A DNA stretch of 64,000 nt from Planctomycetales bacterium (GTDB taxonomy: Bacteria; Planctomycetota; Phycisphaerae; SM23-33). Below the pieces are notes generated by a model. That model was not told the origin of the DNA, searched no databases, and saw only the letters and a program-made list of their open reading frames with translations. The translations under genes were made by a program, and so were the position numbers. This document shows positions 14,616 to 59,735 of the stretch, in pieces (within the stretch, counting starts at the first letter, position 1; every line of letters begins with the position of its first letter). The stretch lies in the NCBI GenBank assembly GCA_030612725.1, contig JAUWNJ010000014.1:1-64000 (forward strand), written 5' to 3'.

Positions 14616-14660
14616 TGGAGACGAGCGGAATTGAACCGCCGACCTTCTGGTTGCAAACCA
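14616..14660. repeat. attL: 45-bp direct repeat of the tRNA-Ala 3' end
   Basis: 'tggagacgagcggaattgaaccgccgaccttctggttgcaaacca' identical to 59663-59707. Confidence 0.95.
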
Positions 14661-14797: not shown

Positions 14798-15643
14798 TCA
14801 CCGCCAGGATTTATCCTTCAAAATCAAGTCCACTCCCAAACATTCTTTTTCCCGCTTTGAAACAATAAATTTGCCTAGAATTTCGAGTTCAAAACCCTGC
14901 TCGTAAAGGGATGTTTCCAAAAATTCCCGATTGCCAACCCGACGCATCGACGCTCCTTTGAAATCCTGCTTGTCCGTGTCCACAGAAATCGAAGACATCG
15001 CTTTGATGATCGCTGGCCCGTCCCGCATGTGAGCGAAAGCGGACGCTTCGCATTCCGGGCCATTCGTCGCACCGCCGACTTTGGCGATCATCGGCGACGT
15101 AATCTTCGTGGAGAGAGCGATAACCTTGTCCTTATCATCCAATGGGCACCAAACGACAATGAAAGCCCACGAAGGATTATTGATGTCCTTCACGTACCAA
15201 AATTCCCAAAGATGACGACCTCGCAGTACGCCCGTCGTTGGTTCCGACAATGCCGGATAATAACCGTGATCTTCCAGAATTTTCCCCAATTCCACACGAG
15301 GCGGGAAAAGACCTTCGGCGGCCTTCTCCCGAACCTTCGATGGCGTCTCAAACGTTACCACCGGTCGAGGGAGCCAATCAGGAAAGAACCACGAAAGAAA
15401 ACCAGTCAACAAAATCAGATTCACGCCGACGATAACAACCAGTCTCCGGCGTCGAGAATAGAAGCCGCCGACTCGCCTTGCAATCGCGCCTGTCTTGTCA
15501 TAAACACGGGCGATCCAGACCACGCTCCGGCGCTCAGGAATGTTGCAGACGTTTCCGCAACCCGGACACTTCTCCGTTTTACCAGCCAGAGAAGACGGGC
15601 TGCTCATGGTTTCGCCACAATTGGGACATGTATAGTCAATCAT
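14798..15643 (-). CDS. Zinc-ribbon membrane protein
   Basis: 'CPNCGETMSSPSSLAGKTEKCPGCG' N-terminus plus TM 'LVVIVGVNLILLTGFLSWFF'. Confidence 0.7.
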   Translation of the reverse strand: MIDYTCPNCGETMSSPSSLAGKTEKCPGCGNVCNIPERRSVVWIARVYDKTGAIARRVGGFYSRRRRLVVIVGVNLILLTGFLSWFFPDWLPRPVVTFETPSKVREKAAEGLFPPRVELGKILEDHGYYPALSEPTTGVLRGRHLWEFWYVKDINNPSWAFIVVWCPLDDKDKVIALSTKITSPMIAKVGGATNGPECEASAFAHMRDGPAIIKAMSSISVDTDKQDFKGASMRRVGNREFLETSLYEQGFELEILGKFIVSKREKECLGVDLILKDKSWR

Positions 15644-15683
15644 TTTTCACACCTGCGAAAAGTCTGTACCAAACGACCACCGG

Positions 15684-15863
15684 CTACTCCTTGCGAGCCT
15701 TGAGAATTTTTCTTATCGCCGACAACTGATCAACCACCGCTCCAATGCCGACCAATATCCAACCACCGACAAAAACCAACCCGCCGGCAGCCCCGTCAGA
15801 AAACATCGACAACAACCCGCCGATGATGCAAAGAACGCCCATTCCCATCAAAACCCAAGTCAT
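15684..15863 (-). CDS. Small membrane protein (59 aa)
   Basis: Manual translation: MTWVLMGMGVLCIIGGLLSMFSDGAAGGLVFVGGWILVGIGAVVDQLSAIRKILKARKE*; two hydrophobic segments; not in the supplied ORF list. Confidence 0.6.
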   Translation of the reverse strand: MTWVLMGMGVLCIIGGLLSMFSDGAAGGLVFVGGWILVGIGAVVDQLSAIRKILKARKE

Positions 15864-15887: not shown

Positions 15888-16352
15888 CTATCGCTCGCGC
15901 GCCCGCTTGTATGCTGCCTCCACCCACTTCCCTAGGTTCTCGAATCCATTATCTCGCACCCAATCGTAGGTTTTGATACCCTTGTAGCCCAACTCAATAA
16001 ACGGGTCTTTGCCTTTTACCTCTGTTTCCCCATTCATATCCTTCAAGTTGTGAATGTATATCCCCAGTAGGCCGTTGCCGTTTTCCCAACTCTGGTTTAT
16101 CTCATATTGAACATACTTGCGTTCCGACGTGTTGCTGCCAATCAATACGACGGTGACGGTGGTTCCCGTTAGATGTTTACGAATCCAACTCTTTATTGCT
16201 TCCTCTCCTTTCTTTTTTACTTCTTCCCAACCTGCAGCATCCAAAAAGCCTGCTGTTTCCCTGTCGGGCTTCGTCACCCAACTGTTCCGAACCTGCCCGG
16301 CTCTCCAACTGTCTTTCTCGAAGTGAAAACTGAAGAATACTCTACGTGCCAT
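15888..16352 (-). CDS. TIR-like (MTH538/ThsB-type) domain protein
   Basis: 'MARRVFFSFHFEKDSWRAGQVRNSWV...GTTVTVVLIGSNTSERKYVQYEINQSWENGNGLLGIYIHNLKD' resembles ThsB/PF08937 TIR-like proteins. Confidence 0.8.
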   Translation of the reverse strand: MARRVFFSFHFEKDSWRAGQVRNSWVTKPDRETAGFLDAAGWEEVKKKGEEAIKSWIRKHLTGTTVTVVLIGSNTSERKYVQYEINQSWENGNGLLGIYIHNLKDMNGETEVKGKDPFIELGYKGIKTYDWVRDNGFENLGKWVEAAYKRARER

Positions 16353-16354
16353 GT

Positions 16355-16771
16355 CTAATCTCCTCTGGTTATAGACAATGCGATCAACGTGACGGCCATA
16401 ATGGAAATGAGAATGGTTGCATGGAATATAAGAAGCGTCGTGGAGAAAATGATTTCAGACCAAGGTTTCACCTGGTGCTTTACAATGGAAGTGTTCATTG
16501 AAAAATCTATTTCGTCCTCATCCATCTTTCTGACGTGATCGTAAAGAGCGCGGAATAAACGCTCTTGCCACAAATAAAAAGCATCCAGTATCCAGAAAGC
16601 GATTGAGGGAAAATATGCAAGATAGACAAAATGGATACTGGTGTTGCTCGCCGATAAGGCAAACAGTGCAGAAACAAGGATCACGCACCATCCCTTGAGC
16701 AGAAAAGAGTTTTGGGATAATCTGTTGATTACACCCTGTATCATTTCGAGGTGTGATTGCCTTTTATCCAT
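16355..16771 (-). CDS. Multi-TM membrane protein, putative partner or effector of the TIR-like protein
   Basis: Hydrophobic segments 'WCVILVSALFALSA', 'FVYLAYFPSIAFWILDAFYL', 'IIFSTTLLIFHATILISIMAVTLIALS'; stop codon 2 nt before the TIR ATG. Confidence 0.7.
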   Translation of the reverse strand: MDKRQSHLEMIQGVINRLSQNSFLLKGWCVILVSALFALSASNTSIHFVYLAYFPSIAFWILDAFYLWQERLFRALYDHVRKMDEDEIDFSMNTSIVKHQVKPWSEIIFSTTLLIFHATILISIMAVTLIALSITRGD

Positions 16772-16807
16772 GCTTCCTTTTTCGGAATTTGGGACACTCG
16801 TAATCAA

Positions 16808-17224
16808 TCATTTGGATTTTATCTTTGACGAACCATATGGGGACGCATGGCCCATGCGGATCAGTTCGGGGCCGATCTCTTTATCGTCCACAAAGACGCG
16901 AGCGAGCAGCCTGCCGAAATTATCCCGTTTACGAGGGGCGCAGAAGACCAGCCGGACGTCGCGGTCGTCGATCAGCCGTTTCAATGCTTCAGTCGCCGCC
17001 GGTCCCGCAGAGGTATTCTTTTCCGGGGCGTCAATGCCCCAGATGCGAACGCTGGTTACATCGCCGTCGTAACGAATCTGAAAAGTATCCCCGTCGATAA
17101 CGCGGAGAACGTGAAACGTCCGAGTCGTAATCTCGTTCGTCCCCACCGCCGGAGGCGTACATCCGGCGGGAATGACAATCGCAAACAGCAACAAGGACAT
17201 TGCCAGAATTCGCATTATTCTCAC
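16808..17224 (-). CDS. SNase-like (thermonuclease) lipoprotein
   Basis: 'HVLRVIDGDTFQIRYDGDVTSVRIWGIDAPEKNTSAGPAATEALKRLI...DNFGRLLARVFVDDKEIGPELIRMGHA'; lipobox 'VIPAGC'. Confidence 0.88.
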   Translation of the reverse strand: MRIMRILAMSLLLFAIVIPAGCTPPAVGTNEITTRTFHVLRVIDGDTFQIRYDGDVTSVRIWGIDAPEKNTSAGPAATEALKRLIDDRDVRLVFCAPRKRDNFGRLLARVFVDDKEIGPELIRMGHASPYGSSKIKSK

Positions 17225-17409: not shown

Positions 17410-17874
17410 TCAAGTCTTACCTGACTTTTCGTGAGCGTTATCTTCTTTGAGGGCACGCCCCAATCTGTCGGCCAGTTCCGCCGCATCGGTGCCGGCGAAA
17501 GCCAGGCCGAGCAACATCCCCTCGATCTTTTTTCTGTTGTCGCCTTCCAGCATCCTGTAAAGCCGGAGGACCTCCCGCTCCGGCGGCGTCAATTCACCGG
17601 TCAGGCCCGCACCGGTCAAGGCCTCACGAACAAGCGTCTCGGCGGATTGCTGCGGCGTCGCCGGTGGAGGCCAATCCGCTGAATCATCCGCAAGCCAATT
17701 TACAGGAACGCCAAGGGCTTCGGCGAGACGCACGCCAAGGACGAAACCCGGCTGTGATGATTCCGCTTCGATCTTCCTGATATTGCCCGGTGTGCAGCCG
17801 ACCTCGTGCGCGATCTCGACGTAAGAGCGACCGCGTCGGGCCATACGTAATTTTTCCGCCAGTTTCACAGACAT
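17410..17874 (-). CDS. XRE-family phage repressor (CI-like)
   Basis: HTH 'KLRMARRGRSYVEIAHEVGCTPGNIRKIEAESSQP'; divergent from the gene at 17993; start at MSVKLAEK. Confidence 0.75.
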   Translation of the reverse strand: MSVKLAEKLRMARRGRSYVEIAHEVGCTPGNIRKIEAESSQPGFVLGVRLAEALGVPVNWLADDSADWPPPATPQQSAETLVREALTGAGLTGELTPPEREVLRLYRMLEGDNRKKIEGMLLGLAFAGTDAAELADRLGRALKEDNAHEKSGKT

Positions 17875-21803: not shown

Positions 21804-21809
21804 AATTAT

Positions 21810-21882
21810 CGCGGGGTAGAGCAGTGGTATGCTCGCCGGGCTCATTACCCGGAGGTCGCAGGTTCGAACCCTGCCCCCGCTA
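21810..21882 (+). tRNA. Initiator-like tRNA-Met(CAT)
   Basis: CGCGGGG...GAGC..GCTC..CCGGG-CTCATTA-CCCGG..GCAGG-TTCGAAC-CCTGC..CCCCGCTA: C1xT72 mismatch and three G:C pairs in the anticodon stem are initiator hallmarks. Confidence 0.85.
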
Positions 21883-21974
21883 ATGGAACGAAGCCGGGCG
21901 GAACCGGCGGGATGAGGCTTGTAGCCTCCGCCCCGATAGTCGCCGACTGGGAAAACGGCTCCGCCTGGCTTCGA

Positions 21975-28524: not shown

Positions 28525-29256
28525 ATGAAAGAGCACCCAATACTTTTCAAAGGCGAGATGGTCCGGGCGATTCTGGACACACGAAAAACGCAGACGCGGC
28601 GGGTAATAAAGCCGCAACCCAAGGTGGTTCATGCCATTTACTCCGATGCGAGCATTGAAACAAATTGTATTTTCAGGAGAGGCGACCAAAGAATCCACTG
28701 CCCCTACGGTCAAGTCGGCGACCGTCTTTGGGTACGGGAAACGTGGCGGGTTGGCGCATGGGACGAAAACGGTGGCCGCATCTGCGTAGATTATAAAGCG
28801 GATAATTATGCCCGCCAAGAATGGCTCACTGTCCCCGATAACGAGATGTTTCAACGGCTTTGGATTCAAACTTCCGAAGATGCGGAAAAGGCGGGCGTGA
28901 AATACGATAGCGACGGCAAATATCATTGGAAGCCCGACGACAGCCCCGCTCGCTGGCGTTCCCCTATCCACATGCCTCGTTGGGCTTGCCGCCTCACTCT
29001 GAAGGTTACGTCTGTCCGCGTGGAGCGACTACAGGATATATCGGAGGCCGATGCCAGGGCGGAAGGTGTACAGGCGGGCTGCGGCAACACCGTAGAAGAT
29101 TGCGCAAGGGATAACTGCCGTTGTGATGTCGAATGTCCCGTAAAACTTACTTACAGGGAGGGGTTACACGAATTGTTGGATTCCATTAATGCCAAGCGGG
29201 GCTTTTCGTGGGACTCGAATCCGTGGGTGTGGGCGATCACTTTCATCGTAAATTGA
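28525..29256 (+). CDS. ASCH/PUA-like phage protein
   Basis: 'HPILFKGEMVRAILDTRKTQTRRVIKPQP', 'GDRLWVRETWRV', 'LQDISEADARAEGV', 'WDSNPWVWAITF'. Confidence 0.8.
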   Translation: MKEHPILFKGEMVRAILDTRKTQTRRVIKPQPKVVHAIYSDASIETNCIFRRGDQRIHCPYGQVGDRLWVRETWRVGAWDENGGRICVDYKADNYARQEWLTVPDNEMFQRLWIQTSEDAEKAGVKYDSDGKYHWKPDDSPARWRSPIHMPRWACRLTLKVTSVRVERLQDISEADARAEGVQAGCGNTVEDCARDNCRCDVECPVKLTYREGLHELLDSINAKRGFSWDSNPWVWAITFIVN

Positions 29257-29258
29257 AG

Positions 29259-30182
29259 ATGGCAAAGCGAAAAAGAAAACGAAAAGCATCGACCGCCGAC
29301 GCGAAGCGACTGCTGAAAATCTTCCTGACCGGAAAAGGACGGCTCACCGCACAGGCCTACGAGACAGACCTTCGGCGATTCGCGGATTTCCTCGGCGCCA
29401 AAACGATGGACGATGCGGTGGCCGAACTCATCGGCGGAGGGAACGGCCAGGCCTACGAACTGGCCAGCCTCTACCGCGCCCACCTGCGGGAACGCTCCGC
29501 CGCCGCCACAATCAATCGACGACTGGCGACGCTCCGATCACTGACCTCCACAGCCAGGAACATCGGCATAATCGCATGGTCGCTTACGATCAAACCGCTG
29601 CCGACACAACCGCTGAGGGATTCGACCGGGCCGGGCCGGTCGAACGTTCGAAAAATGCTCGAATTCGCCAAGGCTCAAGGCGGGCTGAAGGGCTACCGCG
29701 ATACGGCGATCCTGTACCTGCTCTACGGGCTGGCGCTGCGACGGGGCGAGGTGGTCGAACTGGACGCCGAAAATGTGAACCTGAAACGACCGGCGATAAG
29801 CGTTATCGGCAAGGGCCGGGTCGAAAGGGAATGGATCGACATGCCCCTGCTGGTAGCCGAGGCCGTCGCGGCGTGGATGTCACAGCGGAGTTGGGAAGAT
29901 GGGCCTCTATTCTACACGCTCAGCCGGGCTTACGGACGCCAACGACTAAGCGCAACCGGATTGTATTCTATTGTGGTGGCGATAAGTACGTACATCGGCT
30001 GCAAGACCACACCACACGGCCTGAGGCACACGGCGATCACCGATGCGATCCTGCTGGGACACAGCCTCGCAGACGTTCAAAAGTTCAGCCGACACGCGAA
30101 CTTGAACACCCTGCAAATCTACTTTGACCGGGTGCGAGGCGTGGCCGTGGACATCGCCAGCAGCGTCGTAAATGGACTGTAA
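29259..30182 (+). CDS. Tyrosine recombinase (XerC/D-like), second in element
   Basis: 'YGLALRRGEVVELD', 'TPHGLRHTAITDAILLGHSLADVQKFSRHANLNTLQIYFDRV'. Confidence 0.85.
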   Translation: MAKRKRKRKASTADAKRLLKIFLTGKGRLTAQAYETDLRRFADFLGAKTMDDAVAELIGGGNGQAYELASLYRAHLRERSAAATINRRLATLRSLTSTARNIGIIAWSLTIKPLPTQPLRDSTGPGRSNVRKMLEFAKAQGGLKGYRDTAILYLLYGLALRRGEVVELDAENVNLKRPAISVIGKGRVEREWIDMPLLVAEAVAAWMSQRSWEDGPLFYTLSRAYGRQRLSATGLYSIVVAISTYIGCKTTPHGLRHTAITDAILLGHSLADVQKFSRHANLNTLQIYFDRVRGVAVDIASSVVNGL

Positions 30183-58388: not shown

Positions 58389-59555
58389 TTACCCCACCGC
58401 CCGCGCCACGCGTTGGGCGAGGCCCCGGTCCCGCTCGGCGTAGTGGTCGGCCATTTTCAGCGACGCGTGTCCCAGGACGACGCGGACGGCCTCGATCCCG
58501 TAGCCTGCGTTAATCTTCGTAGCGGCGTTATGCCGGAGTTGATGCGGATGCCAGTGCGGAACGCCGACGGCCAGGCACGCCCGTGAGATCGCCCTGCGAT
58601 AGGTCCCCGGCGTGAAGGCCTCTCCGATCACGCGGCGACGTTTTCGCTGATAGTTGGATCGACCGGGCCGGTTACCGTAGTTCAACGGCGTTTTTCTCGC
58701 CGCACGGCGAGCCGCTGCGTGCCAGTCGTAGGAATCTGCGGGCCGGAAGATGTATTCATCTTCGCCCGACGCGTCGATCAACGGCCGTAGTATCCTCTGC
58801 GCCCGCGGCCCGATGCTGACGAGTCGGTCGTAGCCGTGGTGTTCGGTCTTGGATGGCGCGTCGTAACGCCACACGTCGCCGGTCCGGTCGATCAGACGTG
58901 GTTTCATGGCCACCAATTCGCTTGACCTCATGCCGGTGAGTTTCTGGACGTAGATCATCGCCCTGACGACGGGTGGCAGGGCGCGCATTATCCTGCGGAC
59001 GTGGCCGGCGGGGACGGGGCGGACCGGTTCGGATTCGTGGACGCCTGGTCGCCCTTTCCGCAGGCCGCTGACGGCCTTGAGCGATTCGAATCGACCCGCC
59101 GGGACGATTTCTTCGGCGACGCCCCATTTAAAAATCGTCCGGATTCGTCCGACCTGGTTATTGATGGACTTTCGGCGCCAGCCCAGGCCGATCATCACTT
59201 CCCGGCAGGCTTTCAGTTGTCGCGGTCCGAAATCGGCAACCGGCAGATCGTCGTAGAGGTCCAAGAGTATGCGCCCGACGGCCTTGTAGTTGGATAGTTC
59301 GCTGGTGGATTGTCCGCCCTTGGTGTAGTGGATTTTCGCGTGCGACCAGAAACCGGCGAACAAGTCGGCGACGGTCACACCGTCGGGGCTGGGTGGGCGG
59401 CCGTCGCCGGCGACCCATTCGCTGATCATGCGGGCGTATTTTTTCCGGCTTTCTGGCGAGCCGTATTTTCCGAGGTAGAGGATTCGACCGGCGAAATTGA
59501 CGTAGGCCAGGTTTTTTGATTTATGACGAAGGTAGGCAGGCACTCTTGAAGGCAT
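58389..59555 (-). CDS. int: Tyrosine integrase
   Basis: 'KLTGMRSSELVAMKPR', 'HPHQLRHNAATKINAGYGIEAVRVVLGHASLKMADHYAERD'; adjacent to attR. Confidence 0.92.
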   Translation of the reverse strand: MPSRVPAYLRHKSKNLAYVNFAGRILYLGKYGSPESRKKYARMISEWVAGDGRPPSPDGVTVADLFAGFWSHAKIHYTKGGQSTSELSNYKAVGRILLDLYDDLPVADFGPRQLKACREVMIGLGWRRKSINNQVGRIRTIFKWGVAEEIVPAGRFESLKAVSGLRKGRPGVHESEPVRPVPAGHVRRIMRALPPVVRAMIYVQKLTGMRSSELVAMKPRLIDRTGDVWRYDAPSKTEHHGYDRLVSIGPRAQRILRPLIDASGEDEYIFRPADSYDWHAAARRAARKTPLNYGNRPGRSNYQRKRRRVIGEAFTPGTYRRAISRACLAVGVPHWHPHQLRHNAATKINAGYGIEAVRVVLGHASLKMADHYAERDRGLAQRVARAVG

Positions 59556-59662
59556 AGCGATCTCCCGTTCTGTACAGGTACAGACTTGCACAGACGTTCA
59601 AGGCCGCCATGCCGGGCGTTGGCAGGTGAGCTAACTTATGCCCTCGGCAGTTATTACATCAA

Positions 59663-59707
59663 TGGAGACGAGCGGAATTGAACCGCCGACCTTCTGGTTG
59701 CAAACCA
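59663..59707. repeat. attR: 45-bp direct repeat
   Basis: Identical to 14616-14660. Confidence 0.95.
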
Positions 59708-59735
59708 GACGCTCTCCCAACTGAGCTACGTCCCC
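59663..59735 (-). tRNA. tRNA-Ala(TGC)
   Basis: GGGGACGTAGCTCAGTTGGGAGAGCGTCTGGTTTGCAACCAGAAGGTCGGCGGTTCAATTCCGCTCGTCTCCA, full cloverleaf. Confidence 0.95.

Follow-up and report, generated by a model that had tools for sequence, protein, structure and literature searches.

Thoeris systems are defined by ThsA, which is either a SIR2-SLOG or a TM-macro protein. A prophage in the 64,000-nucleotide stretch of planctomycete DNA analyzed here (the window) encodes a ThsB-type TIR protein, and no such ThsA is encoded in its operon. The adjacent gene instead encodes a small membrane protein. This locus raises the question of whether the membrane protein acts in place of ThsA, as an earlier note on this DNA had proposed in describing the pair as a two-gene defense module. 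Our analysis supports this proposal, which accounts for the genomic evidence better than the alternatives do. The pair is probably a Thoeris-like, prophage-borne anti-phage module in which a protein of the PADLOC family PDC-M50A takes the place of ThsA.

Both open reading frames are intact (Table 1), and the membrane protein gene lies upstream of the TIR gene. The 2-nt gap previously read between them is present at positions 16353-16354. The 154-aa product had been called ThsB-like, and this assignment is borne out by matches to Pfam family PF08937 (ThsB_TIR, E = 5.6e-27), to the PADLOC ThsB model PDLC00431 (3.5e-65), and to the PADLOC PDC-M50B model PDLC04688 (2.5e-60). Its top PDB matches are the ThsB structures 9b7d and 6lhy (E ~1e-32). 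The membrane protein matches the PDC-M50A model PDLC04686 (E = 4.5e-51) over residues 1-130 of 138 and phrog_19896 in PHROG (8e-39), and it matches no Pfam family above the cut-off. Its description as a multi-TM protein holds, because hydropathy analysis reveals three hydrophobic segments centered near residues 31, 56, and 124. Its length is 138 aa; the 139 given before included the stop codon.

The neighboring genes match PDC-M50A and PDC-M50B, so PADLOC (2023) already lists the pair as a phage-defense candidate. Both genes of the window match these models at full length and are adjacent, and we find no essential difference from the PADLOC entry. That entry supplies a name only, to which the window locus adds a planctomycete prophage member. 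The earlier note was aware of no characterization of this exact pairing, and this stands in part: the pairing is catalogued (PDC-M50A/B), and a literature search for the name PDC-M50 found no functional study. Since PDC-M50 is catalogued and a "Thoeris type III" is present in the literature, the novelty of the locus is lower than that note held.

The prophage spans 45 kb. The gene pair is on its lysogeny side, 1.2 kb inward of attL. The repeat that defines attL and attR is exact and lies in the 3' part of tRNA-Ala, and terminase, portal, and capsid genes as well as an integrase gene are found between its two copies. Therefore, attL is real and the pair resides inside the prophage. The location noted previously, between the repressor gene and attL and on the same strand as the CI-like repressor, is confirmed, with the repressor gene upstream. 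Promoter and terminator scans around the segment with the pair performed no better than scans of shuffled sequences, except in the divergent lysogeny promoter region. The prophage also carries a second integrase-like gene near its middle (29208-30182; phrog_1, 1.3e-21) and a tRNA-Met gene (21809-21883).

Table 1. Features of the prophage and of the segment that carries the gene pair (window coordinates).
Feature	Position	Strand	Description
attL	14616-14660		45-bp direct repeat, exact match to 59663-59707
Zinc-ribbon membrane protein gene, downstream flank (backbone)	14798..15643	-	281 aa; 78% DNA identity to sister prophage
Downstream flanking repeat	15615..15645	-	Intact zinc-ribbon gene start
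Hydrophobic ORF inside cassette	15684..15863	-	59 aa; possibly not a component
ThsB-type TIR gene (PADLOC PDC-M50B / ThsB)	15888..16352	-	154 aa, ATG start; predicted signal-producing NADase and infection sensor
Membrane protein gene (PADLOC PDC-M50A family)	16355..16771	-	138 aa, ATG start, three helices; predicted effector
Upstream flanking repeat	16783..16813	-	Truncated copy of zinc-ribbon gene start; overlaps SNase stop codon
SNase-like lipoprotein gene, upstream flank (prophage backbone)	16808..17224	-	PF00565, 3.3e-9
CI-like HTH repressor	17410-17874	-	HTH_3, 3.5e-7; PHROG transcriptional repressors
Tyrosine integrase, next to attR	58389-59591	-	phrog_1, 5.2e-35
attR	59663-59707		Inside tRNA-Ala (59663-59735); repeat lies in its 3' part

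A sister prophage with a 92% identical portal protein is present in a genome of the same genus (G294:C124). In that prophage the SNase gene directly adjoins the zinc-ribbon gene, and the segment with the membrane protein gene, the TIR gene, and a 59-aa ORF is absent. Because the sister prophage lacks exactly that segment, the pair moves as one cassette. The segment has a GC content of 46%, versus 54% for its flanks, and is bordered by imperfect 31-bp direct repeats. The upstream repeat corresponds to the beginning of the zinc-ribbon gene in truncated form, a remnant duplicate of its first codons left at the junction, and this favors insertion rather than deletion as the likely explanation for the presence of the cassette. 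The 59-aa ORF has no Pfam match above the cut-off. None of the other loci retrieved contains a relative of it; thus, the conserved core consists of the two genes.

When only the membrane protein was used as bait, searches yielded 254 relatives on genome contigs, of which the best 80 were kept. Together with other searches, these gave 92 loci for examination, 90 of which are distinct (L004 and L084, and L005 and L039, are the same places). A ThsB-like gene lies within 72 nt of the membrane protein gene at 64 of these 92 loci (~70%; best 80 of 254 plus other searches). The co-occurrence of both families in other genomes, on which the earlier note had made its reading depend, is thereby found. 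All 64 of these ThsB-like genes are on the same strand as the membrane protein gene, 61 are downstream of it, and the median gap is 2.5 nt. There are about 115 matches to PF08937 across 294 genomes of the phylum, and we estimate that any one gene would be adjacent by chance with a probability of roughly 1 in several thousand. Since the ThsB_TIR domain is this rare in the phylum yet adjoins the membrane protein gene at 64 of 92 loci, the pairing is far beyond chance.

At least 23 phyla are represented among the best 80 of the 254 relatives, in addition to unassigned records, and one of the loci is archaeal. The membrane protein of a Blastocatellia pair (L015 415-1310) is 71% identical to that of the window, and the E. 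coli plasmid pair occupies L127 3959-5297. The same arrangement occurs on plasmids of E. coli, Klebsiella, Campylobacter, Priestia, Streptomyces, Mycolicibacterium, Desulforapulum, and the haloarchaeon Halorussus, and also in tailless Vibrio phages. In one of these, the 14-kb Vibrio phage 10N.286.55.A5_PE002 (Tectiliviricetes, Vinavirales), the TIR and PDC-M50A genes reside beside the integrase gene (L129 1347-2635), and the annotation of the depositors reads "Thoeris ThsB." A search of viral contigs with the window TIR as bait returned no close relatives, the peptide patterns being too specific. The genome of the window contains a second PDC-M50A gene outside this prophage (G000:C24 22669-23487; L003 4670-5488), positioned 9 nt after a gene for a 124-aa TIR protein of another ThsB subfamily (PF08937, 2.2e-7).

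At most loci without a ThsB-like gene, another TIR gene or a STAND gene adjoins the membrane protein gene. The partner is a TIR_2 protein at L020, L038, and L086, a TIR protein at L077, and a CAP12-PCTIR_TIR protein at L066 and L087. Genes visibly similar to these non-ThsB TIR partners are found at L079, L081, L091, and L094, and the neighboring genes at L065 and L030 are weakly TIR-like. The neighbor encodes a DUF4062-STAND protein at L045 and an AAA/STAND protein at L093. At L062 (898-5420), the PDC-M50A gene directly follows the gene for a 1355-aa nSTAND1-WD40 protein, which has no TIR domain among its best Pfam matches; possibly a STAND sensor uses the same membrane effector there. Three loci are truncated or masked (L006, L016, and L031), and at seven untruncated loci (L029, L033, L044, L051, L063, L088, and L092) no TIR or STAND gene was found nearby.

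On a tree of the membrane proteins, the partner class has changed at least four times if only well-supported branches are counted, and 14-18 times by parsimony. For example, L020, with a TIR_2 partner, and L021, with a ThsB partner, are sisters (SH-aLRT 98). The TIR partners cover several PADLOC ThsB families (PDLC00431, 00430, and 00419). At eight loci, seven of them distinct, a single membrane protein gene is accompanied by two or three ThsB genes; the window has one ThsB gene. At L004 (1085-2401; the same place as L084), the PDC-M50A gene lies between two different ThsB-type TIR genes, overlapping them or nearly so. Co-divergence of PDC-M50A and ThsB is weak (Mantel r 0.11, with 46 of 2000 permutations as high). 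The TIR exchanges, the presence of several TIRs per effector, and this weak co-divergence lead us to infer that an effector reading a diffusible signal fits better than a fixed complex.

A plasmid of Mycolicibacterium vanbaalenii encodes a HIT-M50A fusion protein directly downstream of ThsB (L126 2045-3067). The HIT domain of the fusion matches the PADLOC ThsC model (PDLC00441, 3.4e-18), and the PDC-M50A domain is C-terminal to it. A Streptomyces plasmid carries PDC-M50A, HIT, and TIR genes as neighbors. ThsC might process the Thoeris signal, as was proposed by the authors of PADLOC (PMC8565338). The fusion of a nucleotide-handling domain to PDC-M50A supports nucleotide signaling in these systems.

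These observations also bear on a distinctly less probable explanation, in which killing is done by the TIR protein. This protein would drain NAD+ as an NADase, and the membrane protein would be a sensor, anchor, or inhibitor that keeps the TIR at the membrane until a phage disturbs the membrane, and then releases it. Many bacterial TIR proteins, including SpbK and others, kill by depleting NAD+ (PMC12847820), the two genes are tightly coupled, and the conserved charged cytosolic parts of the membrane protein could bind a TIR domain. However, the partners come from TIR classes that are unrelated and differ in their accessory domains, so a shared small signal fits better than a single binding surface. 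One membrane protein is common to several TIRs, STAND-type sensors appear on the partner side (L045 and L062), and the membrane protein occurs as a fusion with a HIT/ThsC domain. The weak co-divergence of the two families likewise argues against such a complex.

The active site of the TIR protein is informative with regard to its likely product. Loss of the predicted active-site residues, named beforehand as an observation that would speak against a defense role, is not seen: Glu84, which corresponds to the catalytic Glu, is present in all 75 aligned relatives, and Phe6 and Ser8 are conserved alongside it. Phe occupies position 6 in the window TIR and in 73 of 74 relatives, and the remaining relative has Tyr. 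Alignment to the ThsB structures in the PDB, together with a previous report (PMC7272460), places Phe6 at the active-site position where Tyr has been reported only for ThsB proteins partnered with TM-macro ThsA (PMC11204291). The active site thus has Phe6 and not the Tyr that characterizes the His-ADPR class, and the predicted product is more likely to be a cyclic ADPR isomer than His-ADPR.

The invariant Glu also implies that catalysis is under selection, and this weighs against the reading of the pair as a cassette for addiction (toxin-antitoxin) or superinfection exclusion that operates with no nucleotide signal. Such a cassette would account for the occurrence of the pair on prophages, plasmids, and small phages, for its location on the lysogeny side beside the repressor gene, and for its mobility. 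However, the pair is also found on chromosomes and in many phyla, and PADLOC scores the TIR protein as ThsB. We regard this reading as improbable. Least probable is that the membrane protein has a passenger or accessory role and that the TIR protein partners a ThsA encoded at another, unlinked site in the genome: Thoeris loci can have several TIR genes (PMC12578639), so that extra TIRs do exist, and seven loci have the membrane protein without a TIR, but a TIR gene adjoins at most loci even though the membrane protein was the bait, the cassette has only two conserved genes, and a search run without a positive control gave no STALD (SIR2-associated SLOG) match in the genome of the window or in 29 other carriers.

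If the membrane protein is the effector, its conserved residues may indicate how it works. The AlphaFold2 model has a mean pLDDT of 92.7, with helices at residues 3-41, 46-81, and 111-137. W28, D63, and E70 are invariant in all 92 relatives examined, and H7, Q12, R17, K26, R74, and Y77 are conserved at 90% or more. In the model, the two long helices extend past the bilayer, and the conserved charged residues are therefore likely to form the lining of a groove on the cytosolic side of the membrane. A fold search of PDB and BFVD found nothing similar at E < 0.001, and a sequence search of PDB found nothing at the same threshold. The Pfam matches listed for 87 relatives include no known nucleotide-binding domain such as SLOG, macro, or SAVED.

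Several known families were considered for the membrane protein and rejected. No SLATT profile match at E ≤ 10 was obtained for the 87 relatives among the 25 Pfam families listed, of 51, and profile comparison by hhalign with a four-sequence SLATT set from the same phylum gave an E value of 0.92. SLATT proteins have two TM helices, whereas PDC-M50A has three long helices and, by hydropathy, three membrane segments. DUF2270, a weak match in Pfam for a single protein, showed no similarity to PDC-M50A in profile comparison, and 8xMP is a weak Pfam match for only one member of the family. By all tests run, the membrane protein is neither SLATT nor a known Thoeris effector.

The mechanism that we favor for the Thoeris-like module has four steps. 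The ThsB-type TIR protein would sense a product of the infecting phage and, judging from its sequence, would turn NAD+ into an ADP-ribose-derived signal. This signal would bind PDC-M50A, perhaps in the polar groove along the long helical hairpin (H7, R17, K26, W28, D63, E70, R74, and Y77), and cause the protein to oligomerize. The oligomer would then permeabilize or depolarize the inner membrane, and growth arrest or cell death would end the infection. The computed basis for the module comprises the gene identities, the intact catalytic Glu (75 of 75), the tight and recurrent pairing, the exchange of TIRs, the multiple ThsB genes, the HIT(ThsC) fusion, the membrane topology with its confident helical model, and the mobility of the cassette with its presence in one prophage and absence from its sister. 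Counting against it are the lack of a nucleotide-binding domain or of a PDB fold match, the seven loci without a TIR or STAND gene, and the weak Mantel correlation; with these included, we still judge it the probable explanation.

A more specific proposal is offered tentatively, as a possibility that we consider somewhat doubtful. PDC-M50A may be an undescribed receptor for TIR-made ADP-ribose signals, in which sensor and pore are combined in one 138-aa domain, with no SLOG, macro, or SAVED domain. It would bind the signal in the polar groove of its hairpin, open as an oligomer, and serve many TIR and some STAND sensors of bacteria and archaea, and in actinobacteria it would carry its own HIT/ThsC signal hydrolase. 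If the favored Thoeris-like reading is right, PDC-M50A would constitute another effector class for prokaryotic TIR signaling, one that is very small, tied to ThsB, and distributed from archaea to plasmids of E. coli and Klebsiella. The exchange of TIRs around one effector implies that different TIR families should make signals that PDC-M50A can read. Such modules would also present a new target system for anti-Thoeris phage proteins (signal sponges). Temperate phages appear to trade them as small cassettes.

Comparison with Thoeris and related systems helps to place the pair. Its TIR protein is a ThsB with the catalytic Glu, and relatives of the pair combine one effector with one or several ThsB proteins, as in Thoeris generally. 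The pair would thus be Thoeris-like in its working, with no ThsA. Type I Thoeris shares the BcThsB-family TIR with Phe6 and the catalytic Glu, as well as the several ThsB proteins per effector seen in relatives. However, the neighbor in the window is not a SIR2-SLOG ThsA but the 138-aa membrane protein, which matches no known domain. Type II Thoeris (TM-macro ThsA, His-ADPR) also combines a TIR protein with a membrane effector, but the window pair has no macro domain and its TIR protein has no active-site Tyr. A previous report (PMC12390725) names a "Thoeris type III" of P. aeruginosa that is inhibited by TadIII, and this could be the same pair as that of the window or another one.

Outside Thoeris, the AC1 system of a P2-like coliphage (ENA SAMEA9990737) protects E. 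coli C against lambda, LF82_P8, and P2 (Rousset 2022, PMC9122126). It is of the same general kind, with prophage-encoded TIR and membrane proteins, and it has three genes rather than the two of the window pair. PDC-M50A has no match in E. coli phage records. TIR-SLATT pairs have been described in phages, and a role in membrane permeability has been proposed for SLATT. There, too, the prediction is that an ADPR-type signal made by the neighboring TIR opens a small membrane protein (PMC9503650). PDC-M50A differs in having no SLATT match, among the matches listed, and three TM segments rather than two. A ThsB-like TIR gene beside a SLATT gene is an arrangement parallel to that of TIR and PDC-M50A, and within this phylum SLATT proteins adjoin a ThsB-like or TIR gene in two genomes (L104 1489-2379 and L131 1471-2771).
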